Origin: Bacteroidota bacterium
GTDB taxonomy: Bacteria > Bacteroidota > Bacteroidia > Bacteroidales > JACABE01
Reading direction: 5' to 3'
Length of the DNA: 64,000 nucleotides
Assembly: GCA_026391675.1 (NCBI GenBank)
Contig: JAPLDQ010000011.1
Span: 124,001-188,000, forward strand
The position numbers were made by a program, and so were the translations under genes. Below the pieces are notes generated by a model that was given only the letters and a program-made list of their open reading frames with translations, was not told where the DNA came from and ran no database searches. Every line of letters begins with the position of its first letter. The stretch's first letter is position 1. Below are positions 53,461 through 62,120 of this stretch, piece after piece.

Positions 53461-53895
53461 ATGGATTTATCAAAAATATTAGCAATTACAGGAAAACCAG
53501 GATTATATTTAGTTATTTCTCAAACCAAAACAGGTGCTTTGGTTGAATCTATTATTGATAAAAAAAAGATTCCCGTTTTTTCAACGGAAAAAATGAGTTC
53601 ATTGAATGATATAAGTGTATTCACTGATGATGAAGACTTACCTTTGCATAAAGTCCTAAAAGCCATATACGATAAAGAAAACGGTGGAAAATGCATTGAC
53701 CCTAAATCAGATAACAATGCATTGAAAAAATATATGGAAGAAGTATTGCCTAATTATGATAAAGACAGGGTTTATGTTTCAGATATGAAAAAACTTTTTT
53801 CATGGTATAATATGCTTCACGAACAAAATTTACTTGATTTTTCAGAAGAAAAAGCTACAGAAGAATCAGCTGAAGTAACAGAAGTAAAAGAATAA
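53461..53895 (+). CDS. DUF5606 family protein
   Basis: 144 residues from the ATG at 53461 (MDLSKILAITGKPGLY); the longer frame adds 12 residues upstream of the conserved start and spans the -7 element TACTTTTG at 53420-53427. The N-terminal 50 residues form a small barrel-like domain (LYLVISQTKTGALVESII, KIPVFSTEKMSSL), and the rest is helical (HKVLKAIYDKEN, FSWYNMLHEQNLLDF). The family is conserved in Bacteroidota and of unknown function; an RNA or nucleotide-binding role is sometimes proposed. A glutamate-rich tail ends the protein. Confidence 0.85.
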   Translation: MDLSKILAITGKPGLYLVISQTKTGALVESIIDKKKIPVFSTEKMSSLNDISVFTDDEDLPLHKVLKAIYDKENGGKCIDPKSDNNALKKYMEEVLPNYDKDRVYVSDMKKLFSWYNMLHEQNLLDFSEEKATEESAEVTEVKE

Positions 53896-53917
53896 AAAAA
53901 TAATTAATATGCAAAAA

Positions 53918-53951
53918 GTCCGTTTCGTCATTGGCGAGACGGATTTTTTTT
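53918..53951 (+). terminator. Terminator of the DUF5606 gene
   Basis: TCCGTTTCG (53919-53927) pairs with CGAGACGGA (53935-53943; one G-T pair), followed by a run of eight T. Confidence 0.8.
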
Positions 53952-53962
53952 GTTTAATTTTG
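53931..53962 (+). promoter_or_regulatory. Promoter of the ECF sigma factor operon, overlapping the terminator
   Basis: TTG (53931-53933), 21-base spacer, TAATTTTG (53955-53962). The -33 element lies in the loop of the upstream terminator, so the two signals are interleaved. Confidence 0.55.
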
Positions 53963-54010
53963 TCATCCACATACAACCAATTCTGAAAATAAAACGTCTA
54001 AAGAAGAAAT

Positions 54011-54574
54011 ATGCATAAAAGAATTCCCGAAGATAAGCTGATCGAAGAGTGTATTGAAGGGAAACGCTATGCACAGCAATTACTTTTTGAAAAGTACCGT
54101 TCTTTGATGTTTGCCATTTGTATGCGTTATGCTAAAAGCAAAGCAGAAGCAGAAGATGTTATGGTTGATGGTTTTATGAAGATTTACAGCAGTTTGCATG
54201 AGTTTAAAAAAAAGGGCTCATTCGAAGGCTGGTTGAAAAGAATAATGGTTAATACGGCAATTAATAATTATCGTGCCAATATTAAGCATTATTATAATAC
54301 TTCAATTGATGATGAGGAACATATCCTTGATGTTGATAGCAATGAAGATCAATTTAAAACCAGCTATTCTGCTGAATACCTGATCATGCTTATTCAAAAT
54401 TTGCCTGATGGCTATCGCATGGTGTTTAACCTTTACGAAATAGAAGGTTTTAGCCATAAAGAAGTAGCAGAAATCATGGGCATCTCTGTAAGTACAGCTA
54501 AAACACAATTGTTTTATGCAAAAAAAACCTTGCAGAAGAAACTCATAAGCGAACATAAAAAAGACATGTACTAA
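54011..54574 (+). CDS. ECF-type RNA polymerase sigma factor
   Basis: 187 residues. Region 2 (about 22-90) includes YRSLMFAICMRYAKSKAEAEDVMVDGFMKIY, and the region 4 helix-turn-helix is at about 130-180 (GYRMVFNLYEIEGFSHKEV, MGISVSTAKTQLFYAKKTLQK). Sigma factors of this class redirect RNA polymerase to a special promoter set. The next gene, 42 bases downstream, encodes a membrane protein with an anti-sigma-like N-terminus, the usual partner in Bacteroidota. Confidence 0.93.
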   Translation: MHKRIPEDKLIEECIEGKRYAQQLLFEKYRSLMFAICMRYAKSKAEAEDVMVDGFMKIYSSLHEFKKKGSFEGWLKRIMVNTAINNYRANIKHYYNTSIDDEEHILDVDSNEDQFKTSYSAEYLIMLIQNLPDGYRMVFNLYEIEGFSHKEVAEIMGISVSTAKTQLFYAKKTLQKKLISEHKKDMY

Positions 54575-54616
54575 TTTACAATTTAAAAATTGCTTTTGTA
54601 AAAAGGAAAAAATATA

Positions 54617-55549
54617 ATGAAGGATAATTTAAATAATATAGGAGATTTATTCAGGAACACACTGAAAGACCATCACATGGATAGTGATGCTGATTTGTGG
54701 AACAGATTAGATAGCCAGTTATCTGCTCAACCAACTGTTACTGCACCTAAGCCTGTTTCTGTACTACATCATTTAACCTGGGTAAAAATGGCTGCTGCTG
54801 CGTCTGTTTTAGTTGGCGTTGCGCTGGCATATAATTTTATATACTTACCCTTGCAACAGAAAGAAACAAAACCTGATGCAACAAAAATTATTGAGCATAC
54901 ACAGCCTGCAAATATTATTGATTCTGGCATATCACAAACCGGACAAAACAACGTTAATGAAAGTTCAGTAGAATCAGTAATCAGCCAAAATGATCCAAAA
55001 ACATCATTAAACCCAACCCAAGTTAAACCAGCTCAAACAAATGCTGTGGAAAAGACAAATCCGGCAAATAACAACAGCACCAGCAATACAATTGTAACTA
55101 ATAATCAGAGTCAAACACAACCACAAACAAATAACAATACTCAAAATCCTAACAACAATCAAAATAAAGCTGTTGCAAAAAAAGATAGTGTTATTCAACC
55201 ACAAACTAAAGTTATTGATAAAGCCCCTGTCGATACATATCAGAATGCAGTTGCAGTTCATGATAACAGTCAAAAGGATGATGTTATACTAAATACAGAT
55301 ATTCCTAATGTATTTACGCCTAATGGTGATGGTTTCAATGATTATTTTATAATCAGAAACATTGAAAAATGCAGCAGTAACCACCTTGTTATAAAAGACC
55401 GTGCCGGTAAAATAATATTTGAGAAATTAAACTACCAGAACGACTGGAATGCCAGCAATGTGGCGGATGGTGTATATTTCTATTTTTTCAAATACAATGT
55501 TTCCGGTAATAATTTCGGGAAAATGGGTAGTATTATGATAAAGAGGTAA
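54617..55549 (+). CDS. Anti-sigma-like membrane protein with a T9SS type-B C-terminal domain
   Basis: 310 residues. The N-terminal 50 (DLFRNTLKDH, DADLWNRLDSQL) have the helical pattern of Bacteroidota anti-sigma partners, followed by a transmembrane helix (about 56-76, VKMAAAASVLVGVALAYNF). Residues 80-225 are a low-complexity Asn/Gln/Thr-rich periplasmic linker. Residues about 228-310 are a gliding-motility/T9SS type-B domain (IPNVFTPNGDGFNDYF, DWNASNVADGVYFY). There is no N-terminal cleavable signal peptide, so the T9SS domain is probably held in the periplasm, tethered to the membrane. It follows the sigma gene and may sense secretion status, an inference from the architecture. Confidence 0.82.
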   Translation: MKDNLNNIGDLFRNTLKDHHMDSDADLWNRLDSQLSAQPTVTAPKPVSVLHHLTWVKMAAAASVLVGVALAYNFIYLPLQQKETKPDATKIIEHTQPANIIDSGISQTGQNNVNESSVESVISQNDPKTSLNPTQVKPAQTNAVEKTNPANNNSTSNTIVTNNQSQTQPQTNNNTQNPNNNQNKAVAKKDSVIQPQTKVIDKAPVDTYQNAVAVHDNSQKDDVILNTDIPNVFTPNGDGFNDYFIIRNIEKCSSNHLVIKDRAGKIIFEKLNYQNDWNASNVADGVYFYFFKYNVSGNNFGKMGSIMIKR

Positions 55550-55577
55550 ACAGTAAACAGTTAACAGTGAACTAAAT

Positions 55578-55609
55578 AATTCATAACTCATAACTTATAA
55601 CTTATAACT
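55578..55609 (-). repeat. TTATAAG heptamer repeat copy
   Basis: AATTCATAACTCATAACTTATAACTTATAACT on the plus strand, the inverted orientation of 40974-41006. It overlaps the stop of the ThpR gene. Another heptamer copy lies just inside that gene (near 55621-55630). Confidence 0.7.
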
Positions 55610-56171
55610 TTTTACAGCCTAACTTATAACTGCTCACAACCTTATAAACAGCACCTGTTTTTTGTAAAATGCTCTCAAATAATATGATTTCAGAAACATT
55701 CACGGTTTGTATATCCTTATGATTGTATTTTTTAATACTTTCGTTAAACTTTGGTTTATCATAAATAAGATTTATCCTTCCCAGCGTGAGATGAGGTACA
55801 AAATTCTGACGGTCTCTTTCAAAACCAATAGCTGACAACTCATTCAGGATTTTATTGCACAGGTTTACAAGCACTTCATTTTGATCAGTGCCAAGCCAAA
55901 TTACTTTAGGCTGGTATTTGCTTCCAAAAATTCCCAGACCTGAAATGATAAAACTAAAAGCCCGGATGTCAGCAACAATGGATTGCATAAAATTATCAAT
56001 TTCAATAATTCTGCTTTCGTCTGTTTCACCAAAAAATTTCAGTGTTAGATGCAGATTATTTAAATCAACCCATTTTATTTTATCCTGACAGCATTCTTTG
56101 CAAAGATTTTGATATAATTCAGTAAATCTGTCATTTGCATGAATTTTCACAGCTAAAAAAAGACGTTTCAT
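55602..56171 (-). CDS. thpR: RNA 2',3'-cyclic phosphodiesterase (2H family)
   Basis: 189 residues with the two HxTx motifs of the 2H phosphoesterases: HLTLKFFG (about residue 41) and HLTLGRINL (about 128). ThpR/LigT opens 2',3'-cyclic phosphate ends of RNA, and earlier work also tied it to RNA ligation. The last residues (SSYKLGCKKL) are written by TTATAAG heptamers, so the natural C-terminus may have been replaced by the repeat. Confidence 0.9.
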   Translation of the reverse strand: MKRLFLAVKIHANDRFTELYQNLCKECCQDKIKWVDLNNLHLTLKFFGETDESRIIEIDNFMQSIVADIRAFSFIISGLGIFGSKYQPKVIWLGTDQNEVLVNLCNKILNELSAIGFERDRQNFVPHLTLGRINLIYDKPKFNESIKKYNHKDIQTVNVSEIILFESILQKTGAVYKVVSSYKLGCKKL

Positions 56172-59654: not shown

Positions 59655-62120
59655 ATGAAAGCATACAAAGCCATAATTTTAACACTAATTATTTCATCAT
59701 TTATTTCTTTAACTGCCACGGCTCAAAGAAATTATACACAAGAAGCTGATGATGCATTCAAATTGGAACAATATAATCTTTCCATTGATAAATACAAAAA
59801 AGCTTACACTAAGGTTAAACAAAACAGAGCTGAGAAAAACCGAATTCTGTTTCAAATTGCTGAAGCATACAGAATGATGAACAATACCAAGAATTCTGAA
59901 ATAGCTTACAAAAGGGCTTTAAAAGCGAATTACTTTAAACAGGAACCTAAACTTTACTTATATTTAGCAGATGCGCTCAAAGTAAACCAAAAATATGAAG
60001 AAGCCCTGGACATGTATCAAAAGTATTTACAATTGGTACCTAATGACGAAAGGGGTAAAAATGGGGTTGAATCATGTAAGCTGGCACCTGAATTGCTTAA
60101 CAAACCTACCCGCTATGAGGTTGTAAATATGAAACGCTGGAATTCAAGAGATAATGAATGGGCTCCAACTTTCGGCGACAGGAAAAAATATAATGAATTG
60201 ATCTATACATCCACCGGACCGGGTGTTACGGGAAAAGGCCAGGATGCATGGACAGGCATGGGCTTTTCTGATTTTTTTGTTGTAAGTCAGGATAGAAGAG
60301 GCAACTGGGATTCACCAAAACTTTTTGATAACGAATTAATGGTAAATACCGAGGTTAATGAAGGTGAAGCTTCATTTAACGAAACCGGAGCTGTAATTTA
60401 TTTTACCCGTTGTGGTGTTGAGAAAAAGAAAAGATTGGGTTGTCAGATTTATACTTCAAAAAAACTTGGTAAAAACTGGACTGCAGCAGAAGTTGTTGAT
60501 TTGGGTTCAGAAGATTATGATTATGTTCATCCTGCAATCAGTGGTGATGAGTTAACCCTTTATTTTGCTTCAAATATTCCTGATGGATTAGGCGAATTTG
60601 ATATCTGGGTTGCCAAAAGAGATAAAAAAACAAAACCATTTGACAAACCTGTTAATATGGGGCCAAATATTAACTCTGCAGGAAAAGAAATGTTCCCTAC
60701 TTTAAGGTATGACACTACATTGTATTTTTCATCCAATGGCCGCGTTGGATTTGGTGGATACGATATTTTTAAAACATCTAAAGTTAATGGTGAATGGACA
60801 CCTGCTGTTAATATGGGTATTCCTGTAAATTCAAATGGCGACGATATGAGTATGGTTTTTTACCCTGATGGCGAAAGAGGTTTCCTTGCATCAAACCGTG
60901 CCGGTGGCAGAGGTGGTGATGATATCTGGTCATTTATACTTCCTCCGTTATTGTATACAATTCAGGGAACCATCCGTGATGATAATACCCTGCAACTATT
61001 GGATAATGTTACAGTTAAAATGACAGGTTCTGATGGTACTACCGTCGAAACCAAAACCAACAAAAAAGGTATCTATAAATTCGATAATAAACAGTTTTTA
61101 ACCAATGTTACCTATACTTTTGTTATAAGAAAAGATAAATTCTTCGGCGAAGAATCCAAAGAGTCTACTGTCGGATTAAATGCAAATAAAGATTTTGTTC
61201 ATGACTACAGACTGAGACCAATTCCAAAAGAACCAATTTTGCTTCCTGAAATTTTATACGATTTAGCAAAATGGGATTTAAAAGAACAATATCAGGATTC
61301 ATTAATCGACCTTATCAAAACACTGGAAGCTAATCCAACTATTGTTATTGAATTGCGTTCACATACTGACTCCCGTAGAATTCAAATGACCAATGATACC
61401 TTATCACAACGTCGTGCACAAAGTGTTGTAGATTACCTGATTTTAAGAGGTATTGCTTCAGGAAGACTTGTTGCTAAAGGTTATGGCGAAAAAATTCCAC
61501 GTACTTTAACTAAAGAAACATACTCAAAATATAAAGAAAAAGTTTATTCTTTCCCTGCAGGCGTTACTTTAACTGATGAATACGTAAAATCATTGAAATC
61601 ACAGGATGAAAGAGAAGCAGCTTATTCATTGAACCGTAGAACTGAATTCAGTATTTTACGTGACGATTTCGTTCCACAACCTAAAAACGATACCTTGCCT
61701 ATCGGAGTGGTTTCTATCGTTAATAATCCAACAGAAAATAGCGTAGAATATACTATTGGAGCGAATGGCGTTCAGGAAGTACCTTGTATTGTTGATGGTT
61801 CATCGTTAAAAATGTTAATTGATGAGAAAGCAAAATCAACAACAATATCATGGGAAGTTGTTCAGGATTTTTTGAAATCAGGTCGTATAACTAAAAATGA
61901 TTTCAAAGAACAAGAAAAAGCTATTGATGCTGAAGGTAATATTATTGATAAATCAGTATTGATTATAAGTACCTTTAAACTTGCTAATTCAGTTATTAAT
62001 GATATTGAAGTTATTGTAACCAAAAATATGAAAGCTTCTTTAATCATCAATAAATCTAATCTGAGCAAATTTGGAACCATTACCATTGATAAAGAGAAGA
62101 AGAAAATAACAATTAATTAA
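59655..62120 (+). CDS. PorE-like TPR/beta-propeller/OmpA protein with a degenerate retropepsin-like domain
   Basis: 821 residues. Signal peptide (1-23, ending TATAQ), TPRs (about 28-135), a PD40-type propeller (about 155-430, IYFTRCG, LYFASNIPDGLGEFDIWVA, LYFSSNGRVGFGGYDIF), a carboxypeptidase-regulatory-like domain (435-515) and an OmpA C-terminal peptidoglycan-binding domain (about 530-665: IELRSHTDSR, LSQRRAQSVVDYLI, NRRTEF). This is the layout of PorE, a T9SS component that ties the machine to peptidoglycan. Beyond it are about 130 extra residues (about 690-821) like a retropepsin: VPCIVDGSSLKMLIDEKAKS, where the catalytic DTGA is replaced by DEKA (Asp723), and LSKFGTITIDKEKKKITI. Confidence 0.85.
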   Translation: MKAYKAIILTLIISSFISLTATAQRNYTQEADDAFKLEQYNLSIDKYKKAYTKVKQNRAEKNRILFQIAEAYRMMNNTKNSEIAYKRALKANYFKQEPKLYLYLADALKVNQKYEEALDMYQKYLQLVPNDERGKNGVESCKLAPELLNKPTRYEVVNMKRWNSRDNEWAPTFGDRKKYNELIYTSTGPGVTGKGQDAWTGMGFSDFFVVSQDRRGNWDSPKLFDNELMVNTEVNEGEASFNETGAVIYFTRCGVEKKKRLGCQIYTSKKLGKNWTAAEVVDLGSEDYDYVHPAISGDELTLYFASNIPDGLGEFDIWVAKRDKKTKPFDKPVNMGPNINSAGKEMFPTLRYDTTLYFSSNGRVGFGGYDIFKTSKVNGEWTPAVNMGIPVNSNGDDMSMVFYPDGERGFLASNRAGGRGGDDIWSFILPPLLYTIQGTIRDDNTLQLLDNVTVKMTGSDGTTVETKTNKKGIYKFDNKQFLTNVTYTFVIRKDKFFGEESKESTVGLNANKDFVHDYRLRPIPKEPILLPEILYDLAKWDLKEQYQDSLIDLIKTLEANPTIVIELRSHTDSRRIQMTNDTLSQRRAQSVVDYLILRGIASGRLVAKGYGEKIPRTLTKETYSKYKEKVYSFPAGVTLTDEYVKSLKSQDEREAAYSLNRRTEFSILRDDFVPQPKNDTLPIGVVSIVNNPTENSVEYTIGANGVQEVPCIVDGSSLKMLIDEKAKSTTISWEVVQDFLKSGRITKNDFKEQEKAIDAEGNIIDKSVLIISTFKLANSVINDIEVIVTKNMKASLIINKSNLSKFGTITIDKEKKKITIN

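Follow-up and report, generated by a model that had tools for sequence, protein, structure and literature searches.

An anti-sigma-like membrane protein with a C-terminal type-B T9SS domain behind an ECF sigma gene in Bacteroidales

What is a T9SS domain doing at the end of a protein that looks like an anti-sigma factor? The question is raised by an ORF in the window (i.e., the whole stretch of DNA analysed, 64,000 nucleotides of a Bacteroidota bacterium), which is located directly downstream of an ECF sigma gene. Its product shares the TIGR04131 C-terminal domain (CTD) with type-B T9SS substrates such as SprB and PG1035. According to PMC12618676, T9SS substrates carry a Sec signal peptide and are moved across the outer membrane, whereas the window protein has an N-terminus of 58 residues followed by an apparently uncleaved helix. 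The original prediction proposed that this combination was a secretion-stress switch. The features of the cassette are as follows.

53974..54000, + strand: ECF-type promoter, CAACC-N16-CGTCTA, 10 nt before the sigma start codon, kept in 5/5 genomes of the family
54011..54574, + strand: ECF sigma factor, 187 aa, with Sigma70_r2, Sigma70_r4_2 and TIGR02937 all over cut-off
54617..55549, + strand: anti-sigma-like membrane protein with a C-terminal type-B T9SS domain, 310 aa, ATG start
54617..54751, + strand: putative sigma-binding segment, residues 1–45, two short helices, Trp28 invariant in 22 relatives
54791..54847, + strand: single membrane helix, residues 59–77, from hydropathy and present as a helix in both AlphaFold2 models
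54857..55291, + strand: disordered tether, residues 81–225, 54% N/Q/S/T/P with one aromatic residue
55298..55546, + strand: type-B T9SS CTD, residues 228–310, PF13585 and TIGR04131, beta-sandwich

Domains, topology and the predicted sigma partner

The type-B T9SS domain named by the original prediction passes both curated cut-offs: CHU_C (PF13585) matches residues 228–308 (E 3.2e-20, 72.5 bits, cut-off 27) and is the sole Pfam match of the protein at E up to 0.01, and TIGR04131 reaches 40.7 bits against a cut-off of 35. AlphaFold2 gives the C-terminal beta-sandwich a pLDDT of 91–98 and makes it the sole folded domain of the protein outside the inner membrane. In the model based on an alignment of 22 CTD-type proteins, the two short N-terminal helices and the membrane helix are of moderate confidence, and residues 81–222 are mostly below pLDDT 50. 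VIA-align places the sandwich closest to the CTD of NucA (8glk_D; 74/75 residues), a T9SS substrate whose CTD is held in the translocon in that structure, at a Z of 8.4 that is tied with the unrelated enzyme MalQ; the CTDs of PorZ (Z 8.0) and RemZ (Z 7.0) come next, among DUF3244 and S-layer domains. A Foldseek search with the CTD-type model returned nothing under E 0.001, and a sequence search of solved structures with the whole protein gave no match up to E 1. None of the 9 records found in the plasmid collection covers 80% of the query, and those among the matches listed (5 of 9) cover the CTD region only. Rfam had nothing at gathering scores over 53700–55700.

Full-length orthologues exist in three of the four other genomes of the family, with identities of 51%, 41% and 38–43% (the last in two pieces); in the fourth relative, G002, the sigma gene runs off the contig end. 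Divided by part, the identity is 52–67% in the N-terminus, 47–74% in the CTD and 22–32% in the tether, and despite this low identity the tether length is kept at 142–181 residues. Helix and CTD are at least 145 residues apart in every one of the 34 members (of 56 CTD-type ones) for which the distance was measured. Two residues, Trp28 and Pro230, never vary across the 22 aligned CTD-type proteins; ten further columns are nearly invariant, all of them within the CTD.

The N-terminal half is less easily named. At E 0.01 the first 88 residues match no Pfam family, and the single "anti-sigma" hint from the model libraries is NF052375 (NCBIfam "anti-sigma factor"; E 0.014, 15 bits), which is far below its cut-off of 100. 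ZAS (zinc-binding) anti-sigma factors carry a zinc motif with cysteines in the N-terminal domain; residues 1–58 contain no cysteine, and this motif was not found. Since no family model passes its cut-off, the anti-sigma label made in the original prediction is carried by position, conservation and predicted docking. That is to say, the label stands as a putative one and as a family assignment it does not. The uncleaved membrane helix proposed at the same time fared similarly: reading by eye finds no N-terminal Sec signal peptide, the T9SS-substrate feature, and hydropathy shows a hydrophobic helix at residues 59–77 only, so that the single helix holds while its uncleaved state is only apparent.

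Within this helix (54791–54847), two orthologues retain the Ala-Leu-Ala of residues 68–70, a possible signal-peptidase site. This stretch is followed by Tyr/Phe, not by the Gln that Bacteroidetes signal-peptidase substrates usually expose (PMC5837995). It has been reported that RsiP of Bacillus is cleaved by signal peptidase (PMC8844934).

As originally predicted, an ECF sigma gene (54011–54574, with Sigma70_r2 and Sigma70_r4_2 over cut-off) lies directly upstream; the anti-sigma-like ORF starts 42 nt after its stop codon, and the same order is found in G001 and G004. Because the two genes share a frame, sigma factor and partner could be folded by AlphaFold2 as one natural read-through (translation table 6). 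In this model (pTM 0.72) residues 9–38 of the partner, loop included, have a pLDDT of 89–95, compared with 61–75 for residues 1–40 modelled without sigma, a comparison between models built on different alignments. In the docking alignment, 38 rows of the anti-sigma part alone fell on the sigma part, and 8 rows were truly paired. Over both domains, the modelled sigma factor fits the sigma of SigW–RsiW at 4.9–5.4 Å, of RpoE–NepR at 5.1 Å, of CnrH–CnrY at 6.0 Å and SigK at 7.6 Å, whereas those polymerase-bound sigmas for which both domains can be aligned fit at 20–27 Å only. The compact form of sigma is nevertheless no proof of binding, since free SigG1 also fits at 4.3 Å and the SigmaE–RseA and AlgU–MucA complexes align over a single domain only. 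The structure prediction proposed in the original note thus has the N-terminus dock on the sigma factor, a prediction qualified by the misplaced alignment rows and by the fit of free SigG1. Distances among sigma factors and among partner N-termini also correlate (rho 0.43 over 66 pairs). When paralogues were re-paired within 17 multi-copy genomes, the mean rho was 0.12 and the maximum 0.36, and none of 2000 re-pairings reached 0.43. Sigma factor and N-terminus are thus jointly inherited, and linkage alone could yield such co-divergence.

C-termini of sigma partners in the order

The domain pair is no single oddity. The sigma protein was searched in 40 genomes of the order and the gene behind each sigma was read. 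Set A3 holds 65 of 91 loci; 12 were dropped as duplicate or incomplete, another 12 because the partner was missing or incomplete or had no early enough helix, together with L107 and L141. Typically, the partner begins with a short N-terminal part, has its helix near residue 50 and varies at the C-terminus. By Pfam, CHU_C is present in 19/65 partners of this set, and barrels in at least 20 (PF13568 in 20/65 and PF13505 in 10/65, with overlap possible). Ten have PKD, one has OmpA and one Laminin_G_3, and some of the CTD-type members carry PKD domains as well. By NCBIfam, TIGR04131 is found in 18 of the 65 and NF052375 in 5, and a "putative anti-sigmaE" model matches 2/65 at E 0.01. A second set consists of 80 named loci, is biased towards the window sigma, and had its CTD type called by an HMM built from the own genome's CTDs; 35 of the 78 loci with a gene called behind sigma are of the CTD type. 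Three loci of this set repeat first-set loci, which reduces 156 rows to 153, and the best matches among named records are metagenome genomes of uncultured Bacteroidales. The survey suggested by the original prediction therefore finds the pair to be recurrent among Bacteroidales sigma partners, and the CTD architecture to be widespread in the order.

On the sigma tree, at least 14 changes between CTD and other C-termini are needed, compared with a mean of 44.5 after shuffling; the starred branches force just one change, and barrel-ended relatives sit within the same tree. This suggests several exchanges between the CTD and other C-termini, for which no number of swaps is claimed. By the counts of both sets, the T9SS domain recurs as the C-terminal end of many members of a large class.

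The own genome alone holds two type-B cassettes (that of the window and L003), L131, and also L105 and L130 with other long C-termini, L105 being a barrel-type sigma operon. L131 (819–2168, contig C42 near 110 kb) codes for a sigma partner with a helix, a lectin-like Laminin_G_3 domain and a weak type-A T9SS tail, which at 21.9 is below the Pfam cut-off of 27; it may be a member of this class that senses ligands at the surface. The partner at L115 (854–1801) ends in an OmpA peptidoglycan-binding-type domain and not in a barrel or CTD.

T9SS is present in the own genome, where SprA is found at C25:26854–33861 with 2698 bits. SprA is over cut-off in 39/40 genomes of the order and in 47 of the 50 genomes taken from the 80 named loci (31 CTD-type and 19 others); the three exceptions belong to two CTD-type loci, L172 and L192, and to L230, which is of another type. 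The presence of SprA was dropped as a discriminator between the CTD and other types, as T9SS is nearly universal in the order.

Promoter-like sites at T9SS cargo genes

Four sigma genes of the cassette have TACAACC-N16-CGTCTA in common, 9–11 nt before the ATG, and in 5/5 genomes of the family the sigma gene is preceded by exactly this pattern. The promoters of the paralogous sigma operons differ from it, except that of L105 (CAACC-N15-CATCTA), which is close. Because of this similarity, cargo genes with such a site may answer to the paralogue, and the assignment of sigma to cargo is ambiguous.

In the own genome, ACAACC-N16-CGTCTA with at most one mismatch occurs at 12 sites: one at the sigma operon, six inside genes and five upstream of another gene in the right direction. 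Four of these five head T9SS cargo genes, namely type-B cargo on C15 and C34 (TIGR04131 matches at C15:82807 and C34:74107) and type-A cargo on C27 (C27:96644) and C40 (C-terminus judged by eye and absent from the type-A matches listed); the fifth, on C17, heads a gene for an exported protein that is thioredoxin-like by eye. Two further sites with an N15 spacer precede two giant type-A cargo genes on C8. Since the reversed pattern, used as a control, gave 37 sites against 12 and there was no raw excess, the argument from counts was dropped and the regions upstream of genes were compared instead. Among the 30 of 37 control sites examined, two were intergenic, neither with a gene start within 200 nt.

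For the comparison, the best match in 200 nt was scored over 11 letters with a spacer of 15–17. Of the 33 TIGR04131 matches in the own genome 27 were sampled, and after removal of L331 (cut) and L319 (the anti-sigma-like gene of L003 itself) 25 type-B genes remained. The motif is enriched in front of them: 8/25 score at least 9/11, with the proviso that the score was set after the first hits and that two of the eight were already known from the scan. Dinucleotide shuffles of the 25 upstream regions gave a mean of 0.18, and 0/300 reached 8. Among other genes, 0/82 score at least 9 (Fisher p 3.3e-6), a set of controls that counts among its window genes the anti-sigma-like one and a few coding for type-A cargo. 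Within the 42 genes of the window the sigma gene alone reaches 9, and none of 41 genes from other stretches does. One of the eight type-B sites looks spurious (C31, 167 nt upstream, with CAGCC at −35), and one, on C24, heads a run of three type-B genes. For type-A cargo, 13 upstream regions were scored; of the four picked at or near scan hits, three score 10–11 and one scores 7, and of the remaining nine, one scores 9. The region upstream of the translocon gene sprA reaches 7/11, i.e., has no such site.

Replication in relatives is mixed. In G004, 4/14 type-B genes score at least 9 (20 of 44 matches sampled, 14 usable) and 0/300 shuffles reach this, so the enrichment repeats; in G001, where 20 of 25 matches were sampled and all were usable, it does so weakly, with 2/20 and 14/300. 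One-mismatch sites in G001–G004 number 23, of which 4 are at sigma operons (the one of G004 was marked inside an ORF by the script because of an upstream TTG), 4 upstream of other genes and 15 inside ORFs. Three of the four other-gene sites head orthologues of one operon, which begins with a gene for an exported protein of ~160 aa; in G001 and G004 the next gene codes for a type-B protein of 896–897 aa, and the G003 contig ends before this point. The remaining site lies in front of a type-B gene of G004 that codes for 396 aa. The exported ~160-aa protein (L357:574–1035, L358:366–866 and L359) has a sigma-like promoter in all three genomes, and its L357 copy has no Pfam match.

Related systems and explanations of the cassette

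The closest published layout is the Dma type, the "dual membrane-spanning" anti-sigma factors. Dma2, as its authors describe it, combines an anti-sigma domain, a helix, a disordered tether and a C-terminal barrel with an adjacent ECF21 sigma factor (PMC13088901). The window protein has the same order: an adjacent ECF sigma gene, a putative N-terminal anti-sigma segment, one membrane helix, a long disordered tether and a C-terminal domain for the outer membrane. The segment in residues 1–45 is here a predicted dock, but has no family model match. Where the Dma family ends in a barrel, the window protein ends in a type-B T9SS domain, and since the barrel is missing it is not filed as Dma. Dma1/2 affect vesicles and polysaccharide loci, whereas the window sigma has T9SS cargo as its likely targets. 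The term T9SS has no occurrences in the text of PMC13088901. The window protein is built like Dma and by analogy may work like it.

A CTD protein that acts on an ECF sigma factor is also known from Porphyromonas gingivalis, where PorA feeds SigP through PorXY and SigP controls T9SS genes (PMC7712824); it is the one published link of this kind that we came across. Both systems connect a CTD protein with an ECF sigma factor and T9SS genes. However, PorA is a separate surface protein acting via PorXY, whereas the window CTD belongs to the anti-sigma-like protein itself, and SigP controls genes of the T9SS machine, whereas the likely targets of the window sigma are cargo genes. An anti-sigma factor with a T9SS domain was not found in the open-licence literature, among the matches listed.

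The explanation preferred here, held tentatively and with somewhat less than even confidence, is a trans-envelope anti-sigma factor of Dma-like layout, in which the type-B T9SS domain takes the place of the beta-barrel and gauges T9SS engagement in a FlgM-like manner. Cytoplasmic residues 1–45 would hold the ECF sigma factor, the single helix would cross the inner membrane (a topology predicted from hydropathy and models), and the disordered tether of about 145 residues would let the CTD reach the T9SS at the outer membrane. An extended chain measures ~0.34 nm per residue, which for 145 residues makes some 50 nm, enough for the tether to span the periplasm. Besides its own operon, the sigma factor would transcribe a number of T9SS cargo genes, most of them of type B. 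A free T9SS or SprF-like shuttle would capture the CTD, pull or proteolysis on the tether would release sigma, and more cargo would be made; when the T9SS is occupied by cargo, the CTD would be left alone and sigma would stay bound. With cargo genes as targets, such capture-triggered release would give homeostasis. We infer in this that the window sigma, and not a paralogue, reads the cargo promoters, that capture of the CTD is the signal, and that the response runs in this direction.

FlgM is a flagellar anti-sigma factor that is small, soluble and exported whole. The window protein would be FlgM-like in that a machine's export is coupled to the transcription of its substrates, and the overlap of sigma targets and T9SS substrates may be of the FlgM type (8/25 type-B genes against 0/82 others, with ambiguous sigma attribution). 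It differs in being anchored in the inner membrane, where it could be captured but hardly exported whole.

Other explanations account for the same cassette in different ways. The protein may be a plain Dma-like sensor of the surface or outer membrane, whose CTD only delivers or anchors the C-terminus and whose signal is an external ligand or the envelope state rather than T9SS occupancy. We regard this as quite possible, if somewhat doubtful: with barrels in at least 20, OmpA in 1 and the CTD in 19 of 65 partners, the common factor is reaching the outer envelope, the PKD-bearing members and L131 with its Laminin_G_3 domain resemble ligand binders, and Dma2 was proposed by its authors to be a surface glycan sensor (PMC13088901). 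It may well be that relatives carrying PKD or lectin-like domains sense at the surface, which makes this explanation a close rival of the preferred one. For the window protein, however, the CTD is the sole folded domain outside the inner membrane, and T9SS cargo genes as the likely targets point to the T9SS itself.

The secretion-stress switch of the original prediction, in which blockage of the T9SS would leave the CTD stuck in the periplasm and so release sigma for a relief response, shares its architecture with the preferred explanation and is improbable by its targets: the predicted ones are cargo genes, which would worsen the block, and sprA, the T9SS machine gene that was scored, reaches only 7/11. 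A capacity gauge fits better than a stress alarm, since making more cargo when export is blocked is counter-productive. It is very improbable that the protein is ordinary or decayed T9SS cargo whose N-terminus merely resembles an anti-sigma factor. The CTD is indeed a normal type-B domain and no anti-sigma model passes its cut-off, but the sigma gene directly upstream here and in relatives, the Trp28 invariant in 22 relatives, the predicted docking, the co-divergence and the many parallel cassettes all argue against it.

Carried further, the preferred explanation would make the cassette a secretion checkpoint for T9SS, in which the anchored anti-sigma factor shows a type-B signal as bait, its capture by a free translocon or shuttle frees a cargo-transcribing sigma factor, and the barrel, OmpA and CTD versions form one general trans-envelope class, each tied to another outer-membrane machine or anchor. 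This extended form is speculative and, taken as a whole, rather unlikely. Placing the CTD in the anti-sigma factor itself, with cargo genes as the likely targets, would link cargo synthesis directly to secretion capacity in a testable loop, and would also suggest a role for the outer ends of Dma-type proteins, namely engagement by an outer-membrane machine.

As for the carrier, it has been reported that type-B CTDs bind PorP/SprF-like proteins (PMC9143113, PMC12618676) and that in P. gingivalis PorE complexes with PorP and a type-B CTD protein (PMC9143113). For type A, the SprA pore is where the CTD is bound, and a comparable cycle that relies on a different carrier is expected for type B (PMC10994853); five secretion motifs are reported for the CTDs of F. 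johnsoniae (PMC12618676). The cassette is preceded by a Peptidase_S46 gene and a DUF5606/DUF6852 gene, and followed by a LigT-like gene on the opposite strand and then SecDF, with no PorP/SprF family match among the neighbouring proteins scanned. A type-B cargo gene lies at the window end, and 4.1 kb downstream of the cassette the following gene is found.

59655-62120, + strand: PorE-like gene (TPR, PD40, CarboxypepD_reg and OmpA), NF052230 at 510 bits, below the cut-off of 600

The own genome as a whole has at least 150 type-A and 33 type-B T9SS domain matches, an unusually rich cargo set.
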